Below are positions 1 to 35,540 of a stretch of DNA of 37,180 nucleotides, in pieces (within the stretch, counting starts at the first letter, position 1; each line of letters opens with the position of its first letter). Source of the DNA: a virus; IMG/VR virus record IMGVR_UViG_3300036908_000044, positions 1 through 37,180 of that record. One strand, written 5' to 3'. The notes under the pieces are model-generated. The model was not told the origin of the DNA, did not search any database, and saw only the letters and a program-made list of their open reading frames with translations. A program made the translations under genes and the position numbers.

Positions 1-1
1 C

Positions 2-16
2 TACGGCTACGCATGA
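2..16 (+). CDS. 3' end of an upstream Gly-Tyr repeat gene (partial)
   Basis: The first bases read Tyr-Gly-Tyr-Ala-stop, with the TGA at 14-16. The complete Gly-X repeat gene at 320-796 ends with almost the same codons, so the window opens inside a second copy of that gene. Only the last four codons are present. Confidence 0.55.
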   Translation, partial: YGYA

Positions 17-40
17 AAAAACGGCGCGCGACGCGCGCGC

Positions 41-109
41 ATGCCGATCGAGGCATCCGCCGTCGTGGCGGGTGCCATCCTCTCAAGCCTTGGAGCTTTC
101 ACGTCATGA
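41..109 (+). CDS. Tiny hydrophobic protein, copy 1 (22 aa)
   Basis: A 22-residue ORF beginning Met-Pro-Ile-Glu-Ala, followed by one hydrophobic stretch (VVAGAILSSLGAF). It ends in TGA overlapping the ATG at 106, so translation is probably coupled. It corresponds to the 32-residue ORF at 793-891. A 2-base difference here breaks the upstream reading frame but creates this new ATG, keeping the hydrophobic segment in frame. Function unknown; it may be a membrane-inserted peptide. The start is inferred from the frame comparison and no clear Shine-Dalgarno is visible. Confidence 0.4.
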   Translation: MPIEASAVVAGAILSSLGAFTS

Positions 110-336
110 GCACCCCTCAGCCGGGAGAACGCCGTATCTTTCGCTACATCCCAATCCGCCAGACGGACCCAGGCAACCCATACGCCATCCACAACGGGCA
201 AGTCGTCACCGTTTGCCGCGAATTCTGCATCAGCGCCCGCGTCAAAAAGATCAACCTCCGCAAGATCACCTCAGTTGCTGAGGTCTCGCCAGACGCGACC
301 GAGAAATGGGAGTCCGCAAATGTCCATCGCGGGTAG
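106..336 (+). CDS. Small hypothetical protein, copy 1 with divergent tail (76 aa)
   Basis: The first 43 residues (MSTPQPGERRIFRYIPIRQ onward) are identical to those of the 73-residue protein at 888-1109. The C-terminal 33 residues are unrelated and basic (RVKKINLRKI). The stop TAG at 334-336 lies inside the 5' end of the repeat gene starting at 320. The switch between a shared N-terminus and a new tail falls exactly at the end of the direct repeat, suggesting a recombination junction. I do not recognise the family. The short CTCAG-TTG-CTGAG inverted repeat at 270-282 lies within the unique tail. Confidence 0.6.
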   Translation: MSTPQPGERRIFRYIPIRQTDPGNPYAIHNGQVVTVCREFCISARVKKINLRKITSVAEVSPDATEKWESANVHRG

Positions 337-796
337 CTACGGCTACGGCTCCGGCTACGGCGACGGCTACGGCTCCGGCGAAGGCTACGGCGACGGCTCC
401 GGCTCCGGCTCCGGCTACGGCTACGGCTACGGCTACGGCGACGGCGACGGCTCCGGCTACGGCTCCGGCTACGGCGACGGCTACGGCGACGGCTACGGCT
501 ACGGCACCGGCTACGGCGACGGCGACGGCTTCGGCGACGGCTACGGCTACGGCTACGGCGACGGCTCCGGCTCCGGCTACGGCTCCGGCTACGGCGACGG
601 CTACGGCGACGGCTCCGGCTCCGGCGAAGGCTCCGGCTACGGCTACGGCTCCGGCTCCGGCTCCGGCTACGGCTCCGGCTACGGCGAAGGCTACGGCGAC
701 GGCTCCGGCTCCGGCGAAGGCTTCGGCTACGGCTCCGGCTCCGGCGACGGCTCCGGCTCCGGCGACGGCTCCGGCTACGGCTCCGGCTACGCATGA
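320..796 (+). CDS. Gly-Tyr/Ser/Asp dipeptide-repeat protein (158 aa)
   Basis: After the leader MSIAGS the protein is almost entirely Gly-X dipeptides, where X is Tyr, Ser or Asp and rarely Glu, Phe or Thr; it ends GYA. The ATG at 320 was chosen because GGGAG at 308-312 gives a well-spaced ribosome binding site. The stop overlaps the next ATG (ATGA at 793-796). The product should be acidic, disordered and rich in tyrosine, resembling low-complexity adhesive or phase-separating proteins in composition only. No signal peptide is seen. Several other frames also stay open, but the binding site and the coupled stop support this one. Function unknown. Replication slippage could change its length. 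Confidence 0.65.
   Translation: MSIAGSYGYGSGYGDGYGSGEGYGDGSGSGSGYGYGYGYGDGDGSGYGSGYGDGYGDGYGYGTGYGDGDGFGDGYGYGYGDGSGSGYGSGYGDGYGDGSGSGEGSGYGYGSGSGSGYGSGYGEGYGDGSGSGEGFGYGSGSGDGSGSGDGSGYGSGYA
337..792 (+). repeat. Degenerate hexanucleotide tandem repeat (GGCNNN)
   Basis: About 75 consecutive hexamers, mostly GGCTAC, GGCTCC and GGCGAC, with occasional GGCGAA, GGCTTC and GGCACC. Larger blocks recur, for example the segment encoding SGYGSGYGDGYGDG. Every unit keeps the GGC glycine codon and varies the second codon. Confidence 0.95.
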
Positions 797-1016
797 AAAA
801 ACGGCGCGCGACGCGCGCGCCTCCGCCGATCGAGGCATCCGCCGTCGTGGCGGGTGCCATCCTCTCAAGCCTTGGAGCTTTCACGTCATGAGCACCCCTC
901 AGCCGGGAGAACGCCGTATCTTTCGCTACATCCCAATCCGCCAGACGGACCCAGGCAACCCATACGCCATCCACAACGGGCAAGTCGTCACCGTTTGCCG
1001 CGAATTCTGCATCAGC
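781..1016 (+). repeat. Direct repeat, copy 2
   Basis: Second copy of the 1-234 segment. It starts in the last repeat codons of the Gly-X gene and ends inside the gene at 888. Each copy therefore carries the tail of a Gly-X gene, a tiny hydrophobic ORF and the 5' part of a small gene, the pattern expected of a tandem array expanded by unequal recombination. Confidence 0.92.
793..891 (+). CDS. Tiny membrane protein, copy 2 (32 aa)
   Basis: A 32-residue ORF starting MKKRRATRAPPPIEAS, followed by one hydrophobic helix (AVVAGAILSSLGAF) and Thr-Ser. The positively charged N-terminus before a single hydrophobic segment is typical of a small inner-membrane protein. Its ATG overlaps the stop of the Gly-X gene and its TGA overlaps the ATG of the next gene, so it fits the coupled operon precisely. 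Function unknown. Confidence 0.55.
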   Translation: MKKRRATRAPPPIEASAVVAGAILSSLGAFTS

Positions 1017-1109
1017 AGCAACATTCCGCGAGAGCTTTACTACGTTGACGCCGCCGACGGCTGGCGCGGCGCTGTTTTCACCGACGAACTGGAGGAGATC
1101 GCGGCTTGA
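888..1109 (+). CDS. Small hypothetical protein, copy 2 (73 aa)
   Basis: A soluble 73-residue protein with mixed charge and an acidic C-terminus (DELEEIAA). Residues 1-43 are the same as in the copy starting at 106. The remainder (SNIPRELYYVDAADGW onward) is probably the ancestral tail, because this copy flows directly into the rest of the operon. The longer in-frame extension through the repeat region was rejected because it would translate the hexamers in an Ala-Thr/Ala-Pro frame. I do not recognise the family. Confidence 0.65.
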   Translation: MSTPQPGERRIFRYIPIRQTDPGNPYAIHNGQVVTVCREFCISSNIPRELYYVDAADGWRGAVFTDELEEIAA

Positions 1110-1225
1110 TCGACTTCCTTATCGACCACCCGTTTCTGTCTTTGGGCGCGGCCGCGTGGCTCGTCATCGTTGTATTCGGCTGGCTCTTCATCGCGGGAGC
1201 CGCCATCGCTAGCGGGAAAAACTAA
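1106..1225 (+). CDS. Small single-pass membrane protein with TTG start (39 aa)
   Basis: The TTG at 1106 overlaps the previous stop (TTGA). It is preceded by a near-perfect Shine-Dalgarno, GGAGGAG at 1091-1097, with 8-base spacing, which decides this start. The product begins IDFLIDHPFLSL and has one strongly hydrophobic helix (residues about 13-35) ending in a Ser-Gly-Lys-Asn tail. The stop TAA shares a base with the ATG of the next gene. Its function is unknown; it is one of several tiny membrane proteins in this operon. Confidence 0.65.
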   Translation: MIDFLIDHPFLSLGAAAWLVIVVFGWLFIAGAAIASGKN

Positions 1226-1695
1226 TGAACGCCCACCTAAAACGCACGCGCGGCAAAGCGCTTCGACCCGTCAATACCCTCACCTTCACCCAGCGGCTCA
1301 CAGCCCATGCGCTTCTAACGGAGCGCATCGAGCTTCTAGAGAGTGGCCTTTGTAAATACAAAGACCCCAACGCCAACGATACGACGATCGCGGCCGAACT
1401 TGGCCCTGAATACAACAACTCCAACATTAAAAGCATCCGGGCCGAGTGCTTTGGGCGCATCTGGAAACAGCCAGCAGCGCCGGTGCAACAACTCGCGCCA
1501 GCGCAAGACTTCGCGCCCGACATTCAACGATTGTTCGAGGCGCACGACCAGATGGCCGAAGCCACAAATAAAGCGAACCGAGACGCCGCCACAAAAATCG
1601 AGGCTTTGACCACCCGCTACCATCACGCGATGGAGCGCATAGAAGTGCTCGAAAAGCGCTTCACCGGCCTACTGGAGAAGGTAAACCGCAGATGA
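1225..1695 (+). CDS. Hypothetical protein with possible HTH and coiled coil (156 aa)
   Basis: The N-terminus is basic. Residues about 50-80 (NDTTIAAELGPEYNNSNIKS and the following arginine-rich helix) look like a helix-turn-helix. Residues about 100-155 form a charged coiled coil. The product may bind DNA, but I recognise no named family. It sits between the tiny membrane genes and the recombination genes, with overlaps at both ends, so it belongs to the same early operon. Confidence 0.75.
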   Translation: MNAHLKRTRGKALRPVNTLTFTQRLTAHALLTERIELLESGLCKYKDPNANDTTIAAELGPEYNNSNIKSIRAECFGRIWKQPAAPVQQLAPAQDFAPDIQRLFEAHDQMAEATNKANRDAATKIEALTTRYHHAMERIEVLEKRFTGLLEKVNRR

Positions 1696-2675
1696 ACCAG
1701 GCCGACTACGACTTCTGGAAGGCCGCCATGCGAGGGGAGCGGCCGGAAATGACGCCGGGAACGCCGCATTGCGGATTCTATCGCGACAGCAACAAGCGCG
1801 CCGTGGCGATATGGAAGGAGGACGGAGAATACGTCTGTCAGGTGACGAGCGGTTACACGCCGCGCCACCTTGACGAGATCGACGACCTTTTTGGCTTCAT
1901 TGGCCGGACCCCCATCACGCGCGAGGTTTATCTCGCGAAGCAGCGCGGCGAGCCGTGGCCCGAGCAAGTGCCCGCAATCGTCACAAGCGGGCACAACAAC
2001 CCGCCCGAGGACGCGCCCGCGCCGACACCCGACGCCGCGCTGTTGGCAGAGATCGAGGCCCACGCGAAGGCCGTCGTCGAATGGCTCGCGGAGTTGCCGG
2101 GCCGATTGCCGACGACTCAGGCCGAGGCCGACAAGTGCGAGAATTACGCGATCGAATTCGGCAAGCTGGAGAACAAGGCGAAGGCGCTTCACAAGGAGGA
2201 AAAGGCCCCGCACCTGGAGGCCGGCCGGCAGATCGACGCGAAATGGTTCGGCCCCATCATTGAAAAGGCCACCGCCCTAAAAATCCGCATCCGCTCGATC
2301 GGGCTCGACTGGCTCAAGGCCGAGAACAAGCGCCGCGAGCAGGCCGCGTATGAGGCGAACCGGCTCGCGCGCATCGAGCACGAGAAGGCTCAAGCCGCAG
2401 CCGCACACGACGCCGCGGTGTTTCAAGCGCCGCCGCCAGCCCCCGAGCCGTTCAAGGAGATCGAGGCGAAGGCCGCCACGGTCGGAACCGTCCGCGTCAC
2501 CCACAAGGCCCGCAAGTCCGTAACTTACGAAGTTGACGACTTGCCGGCCGCTTGCGCGTTTTTCGCCACGCAAGACGAAGTGGCCGACGAGCTCGTTAAG
2601 ACGATCACCACCCTTGCCAAGCGCGCCGGCGCCGCAGGGATAACCGTGCCCGGAATCCGCAGAATAGAGACTTAA
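1692..2675 (+). CDS. Coiled-coil phage protein upstream of RecT (327 aa)
   Basis: Residues 1-90 form a compact N-terminal region with several Trp and Tyr residues. A GHNNPPED linker follows at about 100-107; GHNxPP segments are common in Rhizobiales phage proteins. Residues 118-250 are a long Glu/Lys/Ala coiled coil. The C-terminal domain (255-327) begins with TVRVTHKARKSVTYEVDDL. Proteins of this kind often precede RecT or Erf genes in alphaproteobacterial phages. A role as partner or regulator of the annealing protein is inference from position. It overlaps the upstream gene by ATGA. Confidence 0.8.
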   Translation: MNQADYDFWKAAMRGERPEMTPGTPHCGFYRDSNKRAVAIWKEDGEYVCQVTSGYTPRHLDEIDDLFGFIGRTPITREVYLAKQRGEPWPEQVPAIVTSGHNNPPEDAPAPTPDAALLAEIEAHAKAVVEWLAELPGRLPTTQAEADKCENYAIEFGKLENKAKALHKEEKAPHLEAGRQIDAKWFGPIIEKATALKIRIRSIGLDWLKAENKRREQAAYEANRLARIEHEKAQAAAAHDAAVFQAPPPAPEPFKEIEAKAATVGTVRVTHKARKSVTYEVDDLPAACAFFATQDEVADELVKTITTLAKRAGAAGITVPGIRRIET

Positions 2676-2730
2676 CCGCAGCATATCAGGACGCGGCCAC
2701 AAAACTTCACGGACAATTCAGGAGATTTGC

Positions 2731-4005
2731 ATGAACGCCCTTGTAACCCAAGCCCCCGCCGTCTCGCGCGCCCCGGAGCGCCTCATCGTGCACGATCCTG
2801 TAGGCGTGCTCGATACTGCTCGCTTCGAGCACCTTATGCGCATTGCGAAAGTCATGGCATGCAGCAGCCTTATCCCGGACTCGCTCACCATCAAGGACAA
2901 GAAGCCCCTCGAATTCGACGCTGTTTTGGGGAACTGCTTTCTGGTCGTAAATCAGGCCGCGCGATGGAACGCCGACCCCTTCGCCGTGGCGCAATGCGTT
3001 TCCGTTGTGCGCGGAAAGATTTGCTACGAGGGCAAGTTGATTGCCGCGATCATCGCCGCCAAGCTGGGCGTCCGCCTAGCCTATGTGTGGAATGATCTTC
3101 CCGGCGACAATTTCGGGATCATCGTCAGCGGGATAATTCCCGGCGAAACAGAACCGCGTTCCATCTCCGGGACCGTTGGCCAGTGGAAAACCGAAAACGA
3201 GCAGTGGAAAAAGAACCCGCGCAATATGCTCGCATATCGCGGGTCGCGCGAATGGGGCCGACTACACGCCGCCGACATCATGCTGGGCGTCTATTCGCCC
3301 GACGAACTCGAAGACCTCACCGACAACATGAAGGCGACGCGCGCGCGGGACGTGACGCGCAAGGAGCCGCCCGCGCCCCCGCAGGACGAGCCGAAGCAGA
3401 ACGCGAAGGAGCCAGAGCCCGAGAGCTTCCAAGACGAACTAGCCGAACTCGCCAAGCAGCGCGAGGCGGCGCAGGCGGAGGCCGACGCGATGGAGCGCGC
3501 CGCGGCCTTCGCCAAGATGCGCGAGGAAGAAGCCGCCCGCGTCGCCAACGCCCTCGCAGAGCAGAAGCGAACCGCAGCCGCGATCAAAGCCGGGTACGAC
3601 GCCGAGGAAGCCGCCCAATTCAAGCGCGCAAAGGCTAACGCAGAAGAACGCCGAGAGGCTGAGGAAGAAGCCGCGCTCGCCGCCGTGGAGGCCAATCAGC
3701 GCGCCATTGCGGCCGAGGAAGCCGCCGCAGCGAAGCGCACGCCGCCGAACCCCGACGACGGGCTCGAACTGACAGACGAGCTTATGGCCGACTTGACCGC
3801 CAAGGCGCAGGCGAGAGAAGCCCCAAACCCCGCGCTAAAGGCCTTGATCGAGGAAGGGACCGCCCACGCGGAGAACGGCCGCAAAGCGCCGGACGGGCTT
3901 GACCGCTGGTATAACGGGCTGTGCGTCAAAGACCTCGACATCATCAACCCACACATGCGGCAGCTTATCGCCGTCGCGAAGAAGGCAGACGGGAGGGCGC
4001 TGTGA
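2731..4005 (+). CDS. recT: RecT-family single-strand annealing protein with C-terminal extension (424 aa)
   Basis: Residues about 30-205 carry RecT-family features: FEHLMRIAKVMACSSLIPD, the FLVVNQAARWNADPFAVAQ segment, the GKICYEGKLIAA segment and SREWGRLHAADIMLGVYSPD. RecT proteins coat single-stranded DNA and anneal complementary strands in phage recombination. Residues about 220-345 are a long Ala/Glu/Arg coiled coil, and a conserved-looking globular tail follows (GLDRWYNGLCVKDLDIINPH), so the protein is longer than typical RecT (about 270-320 residues). The ATG has a strong site, AGGAGA, 6 bases upstream. No RecE/lambda-Exo-type nuclease is visible nearby. Confidence 0.88.
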   Translation: MNALVTQAPAVSRAPERLIVHDPVGVLDTARFEHLMRIAKVMACSSLIPDSLTIKDKKPLEFDAVLGNCFLVVNQAARWNADPFAVAQCVSVVRGKICYEGKLIAAIIAAKLGVRLAYVWNDLPGDNFGIIVSGIIPGETEPRSISGTVGQWKTENEQWKKNPRNMLAYRGSREWGRLHAADIMLGVYSPDELEDLTDNMKATRARDVTRKEPPAPPQDEPKQNAKEPEPESFQDELAELAKQREAAQAEADAMERAAAFAKMREEEAARVANALAEQKRTAAAIKAGYDAEEAAQFKRAKANAEERREAEEEAALAAVEANQRAIAAEEAAAAKRTPPNPDDGLELTDELMADLTAKAQAREAPNPALKALIEEGTAHAENGRKAPDGLDRWYNGLCVKDLDIINPHMRQLIAVAKKADGRAL

Positions 4006-4256
4006 TGGAAGAAACGGCATTGAAGCGCGAGGCGGAACGCGCCGCCCCAATCTACGAGACGCGGCCACCGAGCCCCGGCAGGGGCTACGCCGTGGGCGAC
4101 GACGTTTACATAAACGCAGGCGGCCGAGTCACGCTACCCGAGGGCGCGGTCGTCACCACGCCGGGCGGCAAGCGCTACGTCGTCACGGGGACAAACCTTA
4201 GCGAAGACCCCGGGAACCGGGCGGCGCGCCGCAAGGCAGGGAGCCAGCGCAAATGA
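4005..4256 (+). CDS. Small hypothetical protein (83 aa)
   Basis: The ATG overlaps the RecT stop (TGATG), so it is translationally coupled. The middle of the protein (GYAVGDDVYINAGGRVTLPE, then GAVVTTPGGKRYVV) looks like a small beta-rich fold, and the C-terminus is basic (RAARRKAGSQRK), compatible with nucleic-acid binding. No family recognised. Confidence 0.65.
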   Translation: MEETALKREAERAAPIYETRPPSPGRGYAVGDDVYINAGGRVTLPEGAVVTTPGGKRYVVTGTNLSEDPGNRAARRKAGSQRK

Positions 4257-4471
4257 GCGAGTGTGACGATAGGGAGATCGAGCGCTTAAAGGCGGTCGTC
4301 GAGCGCCAACACGACACGATCGAGCGCAACGGCCGCATAATAGCGGCCTACGCCGCCGAGCACGACGAGATAAACGCCATCAACGCGGCGCTCGTCGGGC
4401 GCGAACTCCCGATCTTGGAACGCGCGCGCCTCGTCGCTTCTCGCTTCGCTGAGTTGGAGGCCTCTAAATGA
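4253..4471 (+). CDS. Small coiled-coil protein (72 aa)
   Basis: A short, charged, helical protein. Residues 5-50 form a heptad-like coiled coil (REIERLKAVVERQHDTIERN). It overlaps its neighbours at both ends by ATGA-type junctions. Function unknown. Its final codons contain the GGAGGCCTCTAAATG module that serves as ribosome binding site for the next gene. Confidence 0.65.
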   Translation: MSECDDREIERLKAVVERQHDTIERNGRIIAAYAAEHDEINAINAALVGRELPILERARLVASRFAELEASK

Positions 4472-4776
4472 CGCGCCGCGCCGCCCGCGAGAGGTTGGCG
4501 CGGCAGGCTATGGGGAAGCTATCGCGGGACGATAGCGAGAACGAACCTAAGCCCGCACCAGAACCGGGTGCGGGAATTCCCGCGCTAAGTATCGGAAAAA
4601 TAAAGGAAGCAAAAATGATAATGGCAGGCTTTGAAATGGCAATCGGCGCCGCGCTGGCAATTGGGGCCGGATATTTAGCCCTATTCGCGATTGCGCTGGT
4701 GTTTGCGTTGATACATCGGCTGTTTTTCGCCTTCGCGGACTCGCGCGTCGGCCAATGGTTATTGGGGCACATGTGA
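4468..4776 (+). CDS. Small membrane protein, two possible starts (102 or 53 aa)
   Basis: The long form starts at 4468 behind GGAGG (4456-4460). It has a basic, proline-rich N-terminal 45 residues, then two hydrophobic segments (AIGAALAIGAGYLALFAIAL and the helix ending RLFFAF). An internal ATG at 4615 has a good site of its own (AAAGGAAG at 4602-4609) and would give a 53-residue membrane protein without the cytoplasmic leader. Dual starts of this sort occur in holin/antiholin pairs, but nothing else here shows a lysis role. It is the last gene of the rightward operon. Confidence 0.6.
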   Translation: MTRRAARERLARQAMGKLSRDDSENEPKPAPEPGAGIPALSIGKIKEAKMIMAGFEMAIGAALAIGAGYLALFAIALVFALIHRLFFAFADSRVGQWLLGHM

Positions 4777-4793
4777 GCGCCCCCCCCCACCCA

Positions 4794-5060
4794 CTAATCG
4801 ACCTTGATGTGACCGCCCCAAAGAGCAGCGCCCCAGCCGGCGATCATCAGCATCCCCAGCGCGAGCGCCGTTAAAAAGGCGTTCCCTATCTTATAGGCGA
4901 TCGAGTCCCATCGCCGCTTCCAGGTGGCCGCCCACATGAGCGATTGATAGGCGTCCGCGCGCCCCTTTGCCGTGCGGAAATCGAGCCCCGCGCCGTCCGC
5001 TTCCCGAAGGAAGGCGTCGAGGCAGCAGCCCGCCTCGTCTCTCTCTTGTGTGCCCGGCAT
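4794..5060 (-). CDS. Membrane protein at the end of the lysis region (88 aa)
   Basis: Residues 1-55 are soluble with a basic/aromatic patch (SLMWAATWKRRWDSIAYK). Residues about 58-82 form one transmembrane helix (FLTALALGMLMIAGWGAALW). It is the last leftward gene and lies just downstream of the holin-like protein, so a lysis-accessory role is possible from position alone. Its Shine-Dalgarno is weak, so the start is uncertain. It converges with the rightward operon across a 17-base gap. Confidence 0.6.
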   Translation of the reverse strand: MPGTQERDEAGCCLDAFLREADGAGLDFRTAKGRADAYQSLMWAATWKRRWDSIAYKIGNAFLTALALGMLMIAGWGAALWGGHIKVD

Positions 5061-5084
5061 GGCCGCAGCCCCATCGTTCGAGTG

Positions 5085-5303
5085 TTAGGAGGCGAGTGCA
5101 CCGGGCTTGGGGCTCGACAGGCCGTGCAGCGCGGAGTTGACCGAGCCAAGCAACAGCGCCGCGAGGGCCGCCGAGGCCGCCATTTTCGCGCCCGGCCCCT
5201 GGCCGAGCAGCGTTGTAAATTCCGCCGTAGCGCCGCCCAGCGCCCCAGCGACAGCCACGCCCACATTGAGCAAAGCCGAGACATTAGGATTGATCGAGAA
5301 CAT
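5085..5303 (-). CDS. Holin-like small membrane protein (72 aa)
   Basis: This is a small hydrophobic protein with two probable membrane helices (residues about 8-28, NVGVAVAGALGGATAEF, and about 40-62, MAASAALAALLLGSVNSAL). Its size, topology and position two genes after an endolysin suggest a holin, which would form inner-membrane lesions to release the endolysin. AAAGG lies 7 bases before the ATG. No holin family signature could be confirmed. Confidence 0.55.
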   Translation of the reverse strand: MFSINPNVSALLNVGVAVAGALGGATAEFTTLLGQGPGAKMAASAALAALLLGSVNSALHGLSSPKPGALAS

Positions 5304-5314
5304 TTTTGAACCTT

Positions 5315-5422
5315 TCAGAGCCGGTCTATGTCGGCGACGAACCGAGGATAGGAATAGACGCAGAATTCGAGGGCGAGGCAGAGGGTAAAAACCCCGTAGT
5401 CATTGAAGATCAGATGCACCAT
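5315..5422 (-). CDS. Very short membrane protein between endolysin and holin (35 aa)
   Basis: A 35-residue ORF (MVHLIFNDYGVFTLCLALEF, then a Tyr/Arg tail) with one hydrophobic helix. AGGGGG lies 8 bases before the ATG; an in-frame GTG two codons upstream is an alternative start. It fills the gap between endolysin and holin-like genes exactly, which favours a real lysis-cassette gene. Function not known. Confidence 0.45.
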   Translation of the reverse strand: MVHLIFNDYGVFTLCLALEFCVYSYPRFVADIDRL

Positions 5423-5435
5423 TTTCACCACCCCC

Positions 5436-5894
5436 TCAAGCCGCCTTTGCGAACGGAGAAACGCGGAACGCGGCGAGCGCCGAGCGCGCGTATTTGATGC
5501 GGTCCGACAGCGCGACCACGCCCGCCATTTCGTAGGTTTTCTCGAATGAGCGCGTGGCGTCTTCGACCGTCTTCGCGGCGCGCAGGCCGATCGCCGTGGC
5601 TTTGAAGTTGGTCGATAGTTCGAGAATCAGAAAGCCAAGATTGGCCTCATCGGACTCCCAAAAACAGCCGTGCTTTCCGCACCACGCATGGAACGCCAGA
5701 CGGCGCGGGCCAGTCCACATCGCCCAGCCGTCGCCGCCCTCATTCGCGGGCTTGCCTATTTCGTGCAGGATGACGAGCCCCGCCGACTCGCGGCCGAAGT
5801 TGCCGAGCGCGCCGGCCGACTGGAAATCCTTGAGCCCAAAATGATCCATCAGCACCCGCATGATGCGCGGGCTTTTCACGTCGAATTCAGCCAT
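5436..5894 (-). CDS. Endolysin, phage-lysozyme2-like (152 aa)
   Basis: Residues 10-60 match the phage tail-lysozyme type (Phage_lysozyme2): IMRVLMDHFGLKDFQSAGAL, then GNFGRESAGL and GWAMWTGPRR near residue 56. Glu36 in the GRES motif is the likely catalytic acid for cleaving the peptidoglycan glycan strand. No signal peptide or membrane anchor is seen, so a holin would be needed for export. GGGAG lies just before the start. The gene begins about 20 bases after a strong terminator, so its transcription needs readthrough or a promoter inside that short gap. Confidence 0.8.
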   Translation of the reverse strand: MAEFDVKSPRIMRVLMDHFGLKDFQSAGALGNFGRESAGLVILHEIGKPANEGGDGWAMWTGPRRLAFHAWCGKHGCFWESDEANLGFLILELSTNFKATAIGLRAAKTVEDATRSFEKTYEMAGVVALSDRIKYARSALAAFRVSPFAKAA

Positions 5895-5914
5895 TTTCCA
5901 CTCCCAAAAGTTAC

Positions 5915-5949
5915 AAAAAACGCCGCGCGAGTTTTTGGATCACGCGGCG
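5915..5949 (-). terminator. Rho-independent terminator after the outer-membrane protein gene
   Basis: On the minus strand a GC-rich stem (CGCCGCG at 5949-5943 paired with CGCGGCG at 5927-5921, 15-base loop) is followed directly by TTTTTT (5920-5915). This is a textbook intrinsic terminator, 21 bases beyond the stop of the gene ending at 5970. Confidence 0.85.
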
Positions 5950-5969
5950 CAAGGTTCGACCAAGGGGTA

Positions 5970-6950
5970 TTACTTGATCGGGATGGGAAGGGTGGAAAGC
6001 GTCACCGGAACCGGCAGGCCGCTGGCGTAAGTCTGCAACTGCGCGGCGCTCACCGGCGCATAAGGCAAGCCCGCGATCGTCGGCGCGGCGAAGGCGTTGA
6101 AGTGATAATTCAAGCCGACCGTCACGACATGCTCTTGCGGGCGATACGAGACGAGATAAGTGGACAGCGCGCCCGTGCCGGGAGCATCGCCGTAGGAGAA
6201 CCCGCCAAAGCTGGCCGTCTGTTTCGCCAGCGAGACGAATTTATATTCGGCCTTGACTGACCAGCCCGAGCCGATCAGCGCCTCGACGCCCGCGCCGAGG
6301 TTCCATCCGGCGACGAGCGAAGACGACGCGGCGTTGCCGTAGGTCGCGGCCATAGCCGAGCCGAACGACTGAACGCCGGTATTTTCATGCGCCCAGGCGA
6401 GGCCGCCCTTGCCGTAGACCAGCACCCCCGGCGAGACGAGGTAGCCAAGGCGGACGTCAGCCGTGCCGGCATAATTCCAGGCGCGGCCAATCTGGGCCAC
6501 GGAGGGAGCAACGCCGAGGCCCGGCGTAACGAAGGTCGAGGTTCCCGCAGGCGTCACGTTCGACACCGCGTCGAACTCAGCGCCATAGACGAACGAGCCG
6601 GTATGGAAATTGTAACCGAGCGTTCCGCCCGTCAGAAAGCCGTCGGTGTTCGGCTTGACGGTCGCCGGGACGCCGAGGGCGTAGGCCGTATAAACCGGAT
6701 AGGGGCCGTTAAGGCCGGACTGATAGACGCCGTTTGAGAAGGCTTCCAGATTGCCGACGCCGGTCGAGAACCCGACGCCCGCGAGAATTCCGCCGTAGCC
6801 GCCCGACCACAGATCGACCGGGGCGACCACCAGGAGGGGCGCGGGAGGGGCCTTCGTTGACGGAAGGTCCGCCGCATTGGCCTGGAAGCAGTAGCCGAGG
6901 CCGACCAGCGACGCGAACAGCGCCACCGCGATAAACAAGCGAGTTTTCAT
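5970..6950 (-). CDS. Outer-membrane beta-barrel protein, opacity-porin type (326 aa)
   Basis: A signal peptide (residues 1-26, cleaved after QANA) is followed by a proline-rich linker (ADLPSTKAPPAPLLV) and alternating beta-strands with many Gly, Tyr and Phe residues, for example TLGYNFHTGSFVYGAEF and WSVKAEYKFVSLAK. This is the layout of Rhizobiales opacity-like outer-membrane porins (OMP_b-brl). Near the end VVTVGLNYHFN is a typical barrel strand, but about 45 residues follow it, so the barrel may not close at the C-terminus. It is a cargo gene in a virion/lysis operon. Altering the host surface to block superinfection is inference. It is insulated by a strong terminator downstream. Confidence 0.8.
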   Translation of the reverse strand: MKTRLFIAVALFASLVGLGYCFQANAADLPSTKAPPAPLLVVAPVDLWSGGYGGILAGVGFSTGVGNLEAFSNGVYQSGLNGPYPVYTAYALGVPATVKPNTDGFLTGGTLGYNFHTGSFVYGAEFDAVSNVTPAGTSTFVTPGLGVAPSVAQIGRAWNYAGTADVRLGYLVSPGVLVYGKGGLAWAHENTGVQSFGSAMAATYGNAASSSLVAGWNLGAGVEALIGSGWSVKAEYKFVSLAKQTASFGGFSYGDAPGTGALSTYLVSYRPQEHVVTVGLNYHFNAFAAPTIAGLPYAPVSAAQLQTYASGLPVPVTLSTLPIPIK

Positions 6951-34717: not shown

Positions 34718-35540
34718 CCCCTGGTCGTGCTTCCCTCGGTTTTTTTCCCAAGAACACTTCCACGTCAAAAACTGGCTTTCCGTCGTGATTTCCGTTGCAT
34801 TTCGCATAATCTTCTCGCATTTCGTTGACTGCTAACTCCATGTGTCCATTGCGATATTTTTGTCCGTTAACGGGGCTAGCGCGAGCCTTGAATCGCCTGC
34901 TGTTGCGCAGCCAAGTTGACCATGCCAAATGCCAGTTTTTCATAAGGTTGCCGCGCGAGCAGTGATGGTCGCGGAAGGCTCGCCATTCGTCGCGAAACTC
35001 GCTTCCCGACACCCCGGCCTCGGAAGCTAGGCGCTTGTCGGCGTCCGATGGTTGGGCGTCTTCGCGGAGAGACGATTTTCGAACAGCCGGTTTCAGCTTT
35101 GCTTTTGACAACACCAAAGGTGTTGGTTTTATATCTATAGGTTCTGACTGAAAGGAAGAACCATTCGAGCAAACGCGCGCGCGCTCGCGGTTTTCTTTAT
35201 ATGGCTCGGGCTCTGTAACGCTTTTTGGCGTTACATCCCACGCTTCTGTAACGCTTTCGTGCGTTACAGCCGTGGCATCCGACGCCTCTGTAACGCTTTT
35301 TGGCGTTACATCCCACGCTTCTGTAACGCTTTCGTGCGTTACAGCCGTGGCATCTGGAACGCTTTTTGGCGTTACAGGCGTTAGGGACACGCGCTCATTT
35401 TCTCTGAATTTACGAACTCGAGCAGCCGTCACCCCGCGCTGGCGCGCACTTTTATCGACAGCCATTTGCTTAACGACAGCAAGTATCGCATCGGAGGAAT
35501 ATCCGAGCTTTTCCATTGCGGTCATGACGTCGCCGCTCAT
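34605..35540 (-). CDS. Phage replication initiator, lambda O-like organisation (311 aa)
   Basis: Residues 1-52 are a helical N-terminal region ending in a basic helix (GVTAARVRKFRENERVSL), a likely DNA-binding element. Residues 55-110 are repeats of VTPKSVTEA and ATAVTHESVTEAWD encoded by DNA iterons. A linker follows. Residues 180-215 (EFRDEWRAFRDHHCSRGNLM, NWHLAWSTWLRN) match the C-terminal motif common in phage replication proteins. Iterons embedded mid-gene and a putative loader gene downstream mirror lambda O and P. It would bind the iterons and start replication. Its 3' end overlaps the next gene extensively. Confidence 0.75.
   Translation of the reverse strand: MSGDVMTAMEKLGYSSDAILAVVKQMAVDKSARQRGVTAARVRKFRENERVSLTPVTPKSVPDATAVTHESVTEAWDVTPKSVTEASDATAVTHESVTEAWDVTPKSVTEPEPYKENRERARVCSNGSSFQSEPIDIKPTPLVLSKAKLKPAVRKSSLREDAQPSDADKRLASEAGVSGSEFRDEWRAFRDHHCSRGNLMKNWHLAWSTWLRNSRRFKARASPVNGQKYRNGHMELAVNEMREDYAKCNGNHDGKPVFDVEVFLGKKPREARPGDDGASLDARNDAEAPGELDFCGVDGTNLPLGPRRPAR
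35109..35139. other. Hairpin and A+T-rich stretch beside the iterons (possible unwinding element)
   Basis: CAACACC-AAA-GGTGTTG (35109-35125) is a perfect inverted repeat, followed by GTTTTATATCTATAG, one of the few A+T-rich patches in this region. It lies inside the initiator gene about 75 bases from the nearest iteron. In lambda an A+T-rich region beside the iterons is where strands open; the same role here is inference. Confidence 0.4.
35214..35383. other. Putative replication origin: five inverted-repeat iterons
   Basis: Five 22-base units of TGTAACGC-N6-GCGTTACA lie at 35214-35235, 35247-35268, 35289-35310, 35322-35343 and 35355-35376. The last has one mismatch (TGGAACGC), and a half-site GCGTTA follows at 35378-35383. 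The centres alternate TTTTTG and TTTCGT. Start spacings are 33, 42, 33 and 33 bases, and a 75-base unit is duplicated in tandem. All lie within the initiator gene. Position and symmetry match lambda ori within gene O. Confidence 0.75.

Follow-up and report, generated by a model that had tools for sequence, protein, structure and literature searches.

A gene for a protein of the family DUF6948 (Pfam PF22253) and, overlapping its end, a gene for a chain of Gly-X dipeptides were recognised from sequence comparisons as a widespread phage cassette. The same comparisons indicate that selection acts on the amino-acid composition of the Gly-X chain, and that the order and number of its units turn over fast. 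With a probability of about 0.4, we consider that this chain, with Tyr as sticker and Gly, Ser and Asp as spacers, may form a multivalent assembly or condensate together with the Sm-like protein that DUF6948 is predicted to be.

The window, that is, the whole stretch of DNA analysed, is the complete virus record IMGVR_UViG_3300036908_000044 of 37,180 bases, and Gly-X copies upstream of base 1 lie beyond its reach. The features at its left end, read from the sequence, from sequence comparison and, for the Gly-X gene, from its ORF and the array survey, are the following:

1-16, plus strand: tail of an upstream copy of the Gly-X gene (..YGYA stop; TAC GGC TAC GCA TGA), clipped at the edge of the record
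26-234, plus strand: direct repeat copy 1, 99% alike to 806-1016, with the final 192 nt identical
106-336, plus strand: hybrid ORF of 76 aa that switches near base 234 from the MSTPQPGE N-terminus to a DUF6948 C-terminus (ARVKKINLRKIT..NVHRG); the parents are separate in the relative L003, at 5992-6219 and 3805-4107 respectively
308-322, plus strand: Shine-Dalgarno-like GGGAG and Gly-X ATG (320-322), within the 3' end derived from DUF6948; the gene overlap is 17 nt
320-796, plus strand: Gly-X gene, 158 aa, 75 Gly-[Y/S/D] units
793-891, plus strand: small gene MKKRRATRAPPP..LSSLGAFTS, its ATG overlapping the Gly-X stop (ATGA)
806-1016, plus strand: direct repeat copy 2
888-1109, plus strand: intact MSTPQPGE gene, 73 aa, its ATG overlapping the stop of the 793-891 gene

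The initial annotation had placed a Gly-X gene between direct repeats identical over 192 bases and had the window open in the tail of another such gene. Both observations were borne out, since the identity extends over exactly 192 nt with the gene at 320-796, and bases 1-16 carry the same GYA-stop end as 787-796. The identical run ends at 234 and 1016, beyond which the repeat copies diverge abruptly. A 2-nt indel near 40/820 separates the copies, and in copy 1 it sets the start of the small gene in frame with the STPQPGE ORF. The gene chain is tight, with the Gly-X gene starting in the preceding ORF, the small gene in the Gly-X stop and the MSTPQPGE gene in the stop of the small gene. The 75 uninterrupted units are the longest run among the 176 distinct arrays examined. 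Rfam scans of the window and of L003 gave no match, nor did a nucleotide search of window positions 1-6000 against phage records, and a hairpin past the Gly-X stop was not stronger than in shuffled sequences. At 35211-35387 of the window, a palindromic unit, TGTAACGC..GCGTTACA, recurs four to five times within a minus-strand ORF of 311 aa; the units are spaced 33/42 nt apart and resemble iterons or operator sites.

L003, a relative from another metagenome, bears a single cassette, composed of an intact DUF6948 gene (3805-4107), a Gly-X gene (4091-4441) and then small genes. Its upstream protein is a DUF6948 member well above the cut-off (77.1 bits versus 27, E 1.2e-21), with residues 10-92 aligned to positions 2-85 of 85; Pfam assigns the family no function. 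On the other hand, the window holds the C-terminal part of DUF6948 alone, in the ORF 106-336, which gave no Pfam match.

The pairing was assessed from both genes. A DNA pattern for Gly-[Y/S/D/A] repeats matched at least 120 viral stretches, and 66 of 102 Gly-X arrays were preceded, at up to 2 kb and in the same orientation, by a DUF6948 ORF, mostly at 65 nt or less. Many of the rest begin at the edge of their locus, and several others follow an ORF that resembles DUF6948 by eye (VVVVDRGWIFAGDV..) below Pfam detection. The Pfam profile matched in 48 of 50 cassette-bearing records. The pattern for the reverse search was drawn from a DUF6948 subfamily, since the initial alignment of the family proved too diverse; a Gly-X gene lay directly downstream in 80/80 viral loci, these being the best 80 of 528 found with a query taken from Gly-X neighbours, so that the proportion may overstate the family at large. 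Among DUF6948 loci of prokaryotic genomes the proportion was 22/28, and four of the six negatives stop within 40 nt of DUF6948. A record of chromosome size from Neisseria gonorrhoeae (L242, NZ_CP119142.1), listed as a plasmid in PLSDB, has three DUF6948 places, and the place examined shows a Gly-[N/S/D/Y] frame in AAC/AGC codons. Additionally, all 14 phage records inspected are paired, seven at first (including Iodobacter PhiPLPE, Pectobacterium Ymer, Vibrio IKEMa6-1 and Chlorobiaceae CV-1-33) and then seven of the Pectobacterium/Dickeya group.

The junction between the two genes is also conserved. Of 150 distinct cassettes, 142 have the Gly-X start codon within DUF6948; the overlap is 13 nt in 98 of them, and there a conserved Trp codon near the DUF6948 terminus supplies the Gly-X ATG (xxA TGG). 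Ahead of the start, a Shine-Dalgarno-like motif was present in 47% versus 17% in shuffles. The Gly-X gene, its frame and its overlap are well supported. In one locus (L032) both proteins are fused in a single reading frame, and the profile of PHROG 18306 matches Gly-X at 57-136 and DUF6948 at 153-236. The profiles of PHROG 18306 and 10432 both contain Gly-X stretches, but these families are catalogued as of unknown function, with neither the pairing nor the hypervariability noted. No match above the cut-offs was obtained with NCBIfam. In the open-licence literature, which was the scope of the search, no paper described the pairing or named DUF6948, and nothing relevant on glycine-tyrosine repeats of phages came up. 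DUF6948 and the PHROG families were already catalogued as unknowns, and the description of the pairing of DUF6948 with Gly-X appears to be new in the open-licence literature, with priority unproven.

The structure of the window can be understood from its single-copy relative. The MSTPQPGE gene of L003 is separate, at 5992-6219, and the extent of the duplicated block, as given by L003, identifies ORF 106-336 as a hybrid. Its switch point is an 8-nt near-match, GCATC[A/G]GC, found at the breakpoint in both parent genes. These comparisons support a duplicated block composed of the 3' end of DUF6948, the Gly-X gene, the small gene and the start of MSTPQPGE; because of the 2-nt indel, the copies do not represent one copy assembled twice. 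The earlier proposal of a tandem array expanding by unequal recombination therefore stands as regards the tandem duplication, given the single copy in L003 and the hybrid junction; the DUF6948 pairing, the fixed overlap and the hypervariability within the array had escaped it. The right end of the window matches L003 near 3539 at 89% (position converted from contig coordinates), and from this match the window resembles a circular map opened here, in the Gly-X region, probably without some 900 bp relative to L003, in which a complete DUF6948 gene and the first Gly-X gene would presumably lie. Tandem Gly-X genes recur in other loci, with five copies each in L060 and L009. Those of L060 have identical 70-nt flanks and different arrays. 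In L091 the second Gly-X copy likewise stands behind a truncated DUF6948 tail.

Downstream of the Gly-X gene, L003 encodes a second repeat protein of the cluster, a DUF7666 protein (5003-5854) with about nine 27-nt repeats (SGDYAKNAS). This gene is absent from the window, and in L003 the stretch is bordered by a direct repeat of 42 bp; both facts suggest that it was deleted or gained by recombination.

The X residues of the 176 distinct arrays (5,225 units) were S 35%, Y 34%, D 23% and N 3%, with Tyr, Ser and Asp together accounting for 92%. The overall composition was Gly 50%, Tyr 17%, Ser 17% and Asp 12%, a low-complexity chain with regular aromatics among small polar residues, in which roughly every fourth X is acidic (net 0.23). 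Arrays range from about 13 to 75 units, in near-random order with block duplications. Repeated blocks were longer than in shuffles (6.9 versus 5.1 units, p ≤ 0.05 in 31% of arrays), as expected from block duplication; for the array of the window itself the excess was not significant. Within arrays the entropy was 0.14 and 0.19 bits at the two third positions, compared with.95-.97 at positions one and two of the X codon. The fixed third bases vary by phage (GGC+NNC, GGC+NNT, GGG+NNC, GGT+NNC, GGT+NNT, GGA+NNT) with the residues unchanged, and a Neisseria gonorrhoeae prophage cassette encodes the same kind of residues by AAC and AGC codons. Ala was observed at X 16 times versus 425 expected from independent positions, a 27-fold depletion, and its codons are one base from both Ser and Asp codons. 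In the simplest reading of these data, slippage or unequal crossing-over would homogenise neutral sites and selection would retain the Tyr/Ser/Asp mixture. An explanation by mutational bias (A:T to C:G) was set aside, since it would yield Ala too.

Two other candidates were rejected. The Pfam match of Gly-X to TrAA12 is below the cut-off and reflects the Gly-rich composition. A target of a diversity-generating retroelement disagrees with the variation pattern, because the arrays shift in length and unit order; X is nearly confined to TA, TC and GA codons with Ala almost absent, unlike adenine-directed substitution at fixed length.

The speed of turnover is best appreciated between close relatives. 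In the Pectobacterium phages Ymer, Abuela, Amona and Taid, the DUF6948 genes are 99.7-100% identical and the 700 nt downstream 100% identical. Ymer and Abuela have one array in common, and those of Amona and Taid differ in length and order, so phages alike over about 1.1 kb of flanks bear different arrays, a difference to be read in the light of their assembly from short reads (PMC11445585). The paper on the Ymer genus does not mention glycine (PMC11445585). On the other hand, the same array of 45-odd units was assembled independently in several samples (L086, L133-L140). One array (L152:2779-3412) has an internal out-of-frame stretch (RVRVRV), after which the frame is regained; L151, with an identical upstream flank, is without this break, and either compensated indels or sequencing error would explain it. 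The arrays break metagenomic assemblies: of 80 contigs, 19 stop in the array, at most 400 nt past DUF6948, and two start within 400 nt upstream of it. Phage contigs such as the window thus end there.

Some Gly-X chains run into a C-terminal domain (..YIDGVPT..LTGSCxxGR..), as in L019, L067, L069, L100, L130, L239 and others. A domain of this type (YIDGxPT..LTGSCxxGR) is also present in L074, L131 and L237; it was modelled with pLDDT 93 and gave no PDB match (best E 0.64). It also occurs after GGSLDL-type repeats instead of Gly-X, in L026:7605-8003 and L235:5012-5413. A different C-terminal domain (YWLxTI..LHATxxPxKWxGxRxWIVAL) follows the Gly-X chains of L065, L106 and L148. Where a globular C-terminal domain is present, Gly-X may be a linker only.

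In contrast to that C-terminal domain, the AlphaFold2 model of DUF6948, obtained from 44 sequences (pLDDT 95.2, pTM 0.87), had Sm/LSm-fold chains as the 50 best PDB matches listed, with probability 1.0 for most, modest E-values (best 3.8e-3) and TM 0.40-0.56 by query. The predicted fold has five strands in Sm order, as in archaeal SmAP and Lsm1-7, but carries an additional helix between strands 3 and 4 and another at the C-terminus, and there is no significant sequence match. Alignment by hhalign with five archaeal Sm sequences placed the Sm1 region in register at a probability of 5%, a PDB profile search with DUF6948 returned no Sm chain, and the Pfam scan of the L003 gene found DUF6948 only, with no Sm profile match. 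DUF6948 probably has a Sm/LSm-like fold, family membership not being claimed, and it may bind RNA.

The cassette is often near repressor, RusA, Erf/RecT or SSB genes, as in the window, L003 and several records; of 50 records, just 5 had a RecT match above the cut-off at a distance of up to about 4 kb from DUF6948. In phages of the Ymer genus an annotated tail-fibre gene stands beside the cassette on the other strand.

The favoured, tentative reading is that of condensate formation. The overlap would couple translation, so that the DUF6948 and Gly-X proteins would be produced together. The chain would be a disordered polymer acting by its composition and not by its exact sequence; length and order being free and composition fixed, a condensate or scaffold would fit better than a specific binding surface. 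With its Sm-like partner it could build a multivalent assembly early in infection, perhaps around RNA, the early timing being suggested by the neighbouring repressor, RusA, RecT/Erf or SSB genes. Hexamer slippage or unequal crossing-over would shuffle the array with the frame preserved, and the same recombination would occasionally duplicate the whole Gly-X gene, as in the window. Condensing prion-like domains frequently use Arg or Gln; both are nearly absent from Gly-X arrays, which counts against condensation. The sticker and spacer terms follow work on FET prion-like domains (PMC10850361, PMC7865556), in which Tyr stickers with Ser/Gly spacers drive condensation (PMC10850361). Gly-X resembles FUS/EWSR1-type domains in its regular Tyr among Gly/Ser and in the weight of composition over order (PMC10850361, PMC7865556), but it is a strict dipeptide with Asp and not Gln/Arg, usually in a separate gene, of phage origin and known from sequence.

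An unlikely alternative is that of a variable binding protein, in which Gly-X would display Tyr, Ser and Asp and reshuffling would track a changing target such as a receptor, a defence protein or a competitor. Such side chains are common in antibody paratopes, and the restriction of X to them, the hypervariability between phages with identical flanks and between the tandem copies of L060, and the tail-fibre neighbour of the Ymer genus agree with it. However, no fixed scaffold surrounds the variable residues, Gly-X has no sign of export, and the wide range of lengths and near-random order behave as if composition alone counts. Still less credit is given to a structural or adhesive polymer, whose strict alternation over up to 75 units would put the side chains on one beta-strand face and produce sheets or fibres like those of silk, either in virions or within cells; the acidic residues should counter stacking, and the cassette often adjoins the repressor and recombination genes rather than a tail module. 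Because of this usual neighbourhood adhesion or display is less favoured in general, although a tail-fibre gene is the neighbour in phages of the Ymer genus.

There is a slim chance that the act of translation is what matters, the coupled frame adjusting how well the DUF6948 mRNA is translated or how long it lasts, or draining glycyl-tRNA. The fixed overlap and a chain that is half Gly would suit it, but no selection for Tyr/Ser/Asp over Ala would be expected, and the fusions to DUF6948 or to C-terminal domains are not accounted for. A functionless microsatellite or an assembly artefact, to which the broken contigs might point, is hardly credible, given the array assembled independently in several samples, its presence in cultured phages, the position, frame and composition kept across very different phages, and, in the window, the difference between the copies and a junction of 8 nt, shorter than a k-mer chimera would need.

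Low-complexity aromatic domains with Sm-fold partners are found in eukaryotic RNA granules. Returning to the condensate reading, its fullest form, which we regard as doubtful, is that phages whose hosts differ widely share a ribonucleoprotein-condensate module of two genes, in which a Sm-like ring would be combined with a translationally coupled, FUS-like Gly-Tyr polymer, selected by composition for solubility and stickiness and reshuffled faster than single-base substitutions accrue in its flanks. If true, this compact phage counterpart would provide a minimal genetic system for composition-selected disorder. Carriers of the cassette include cultured phages of Iodobacter, Pectobacterium, Vibrio and green sulfur bacteria, and relatives with identical flanks and different arrays would serve as natural replicates for finding out what selection preserves in a disordered protein.
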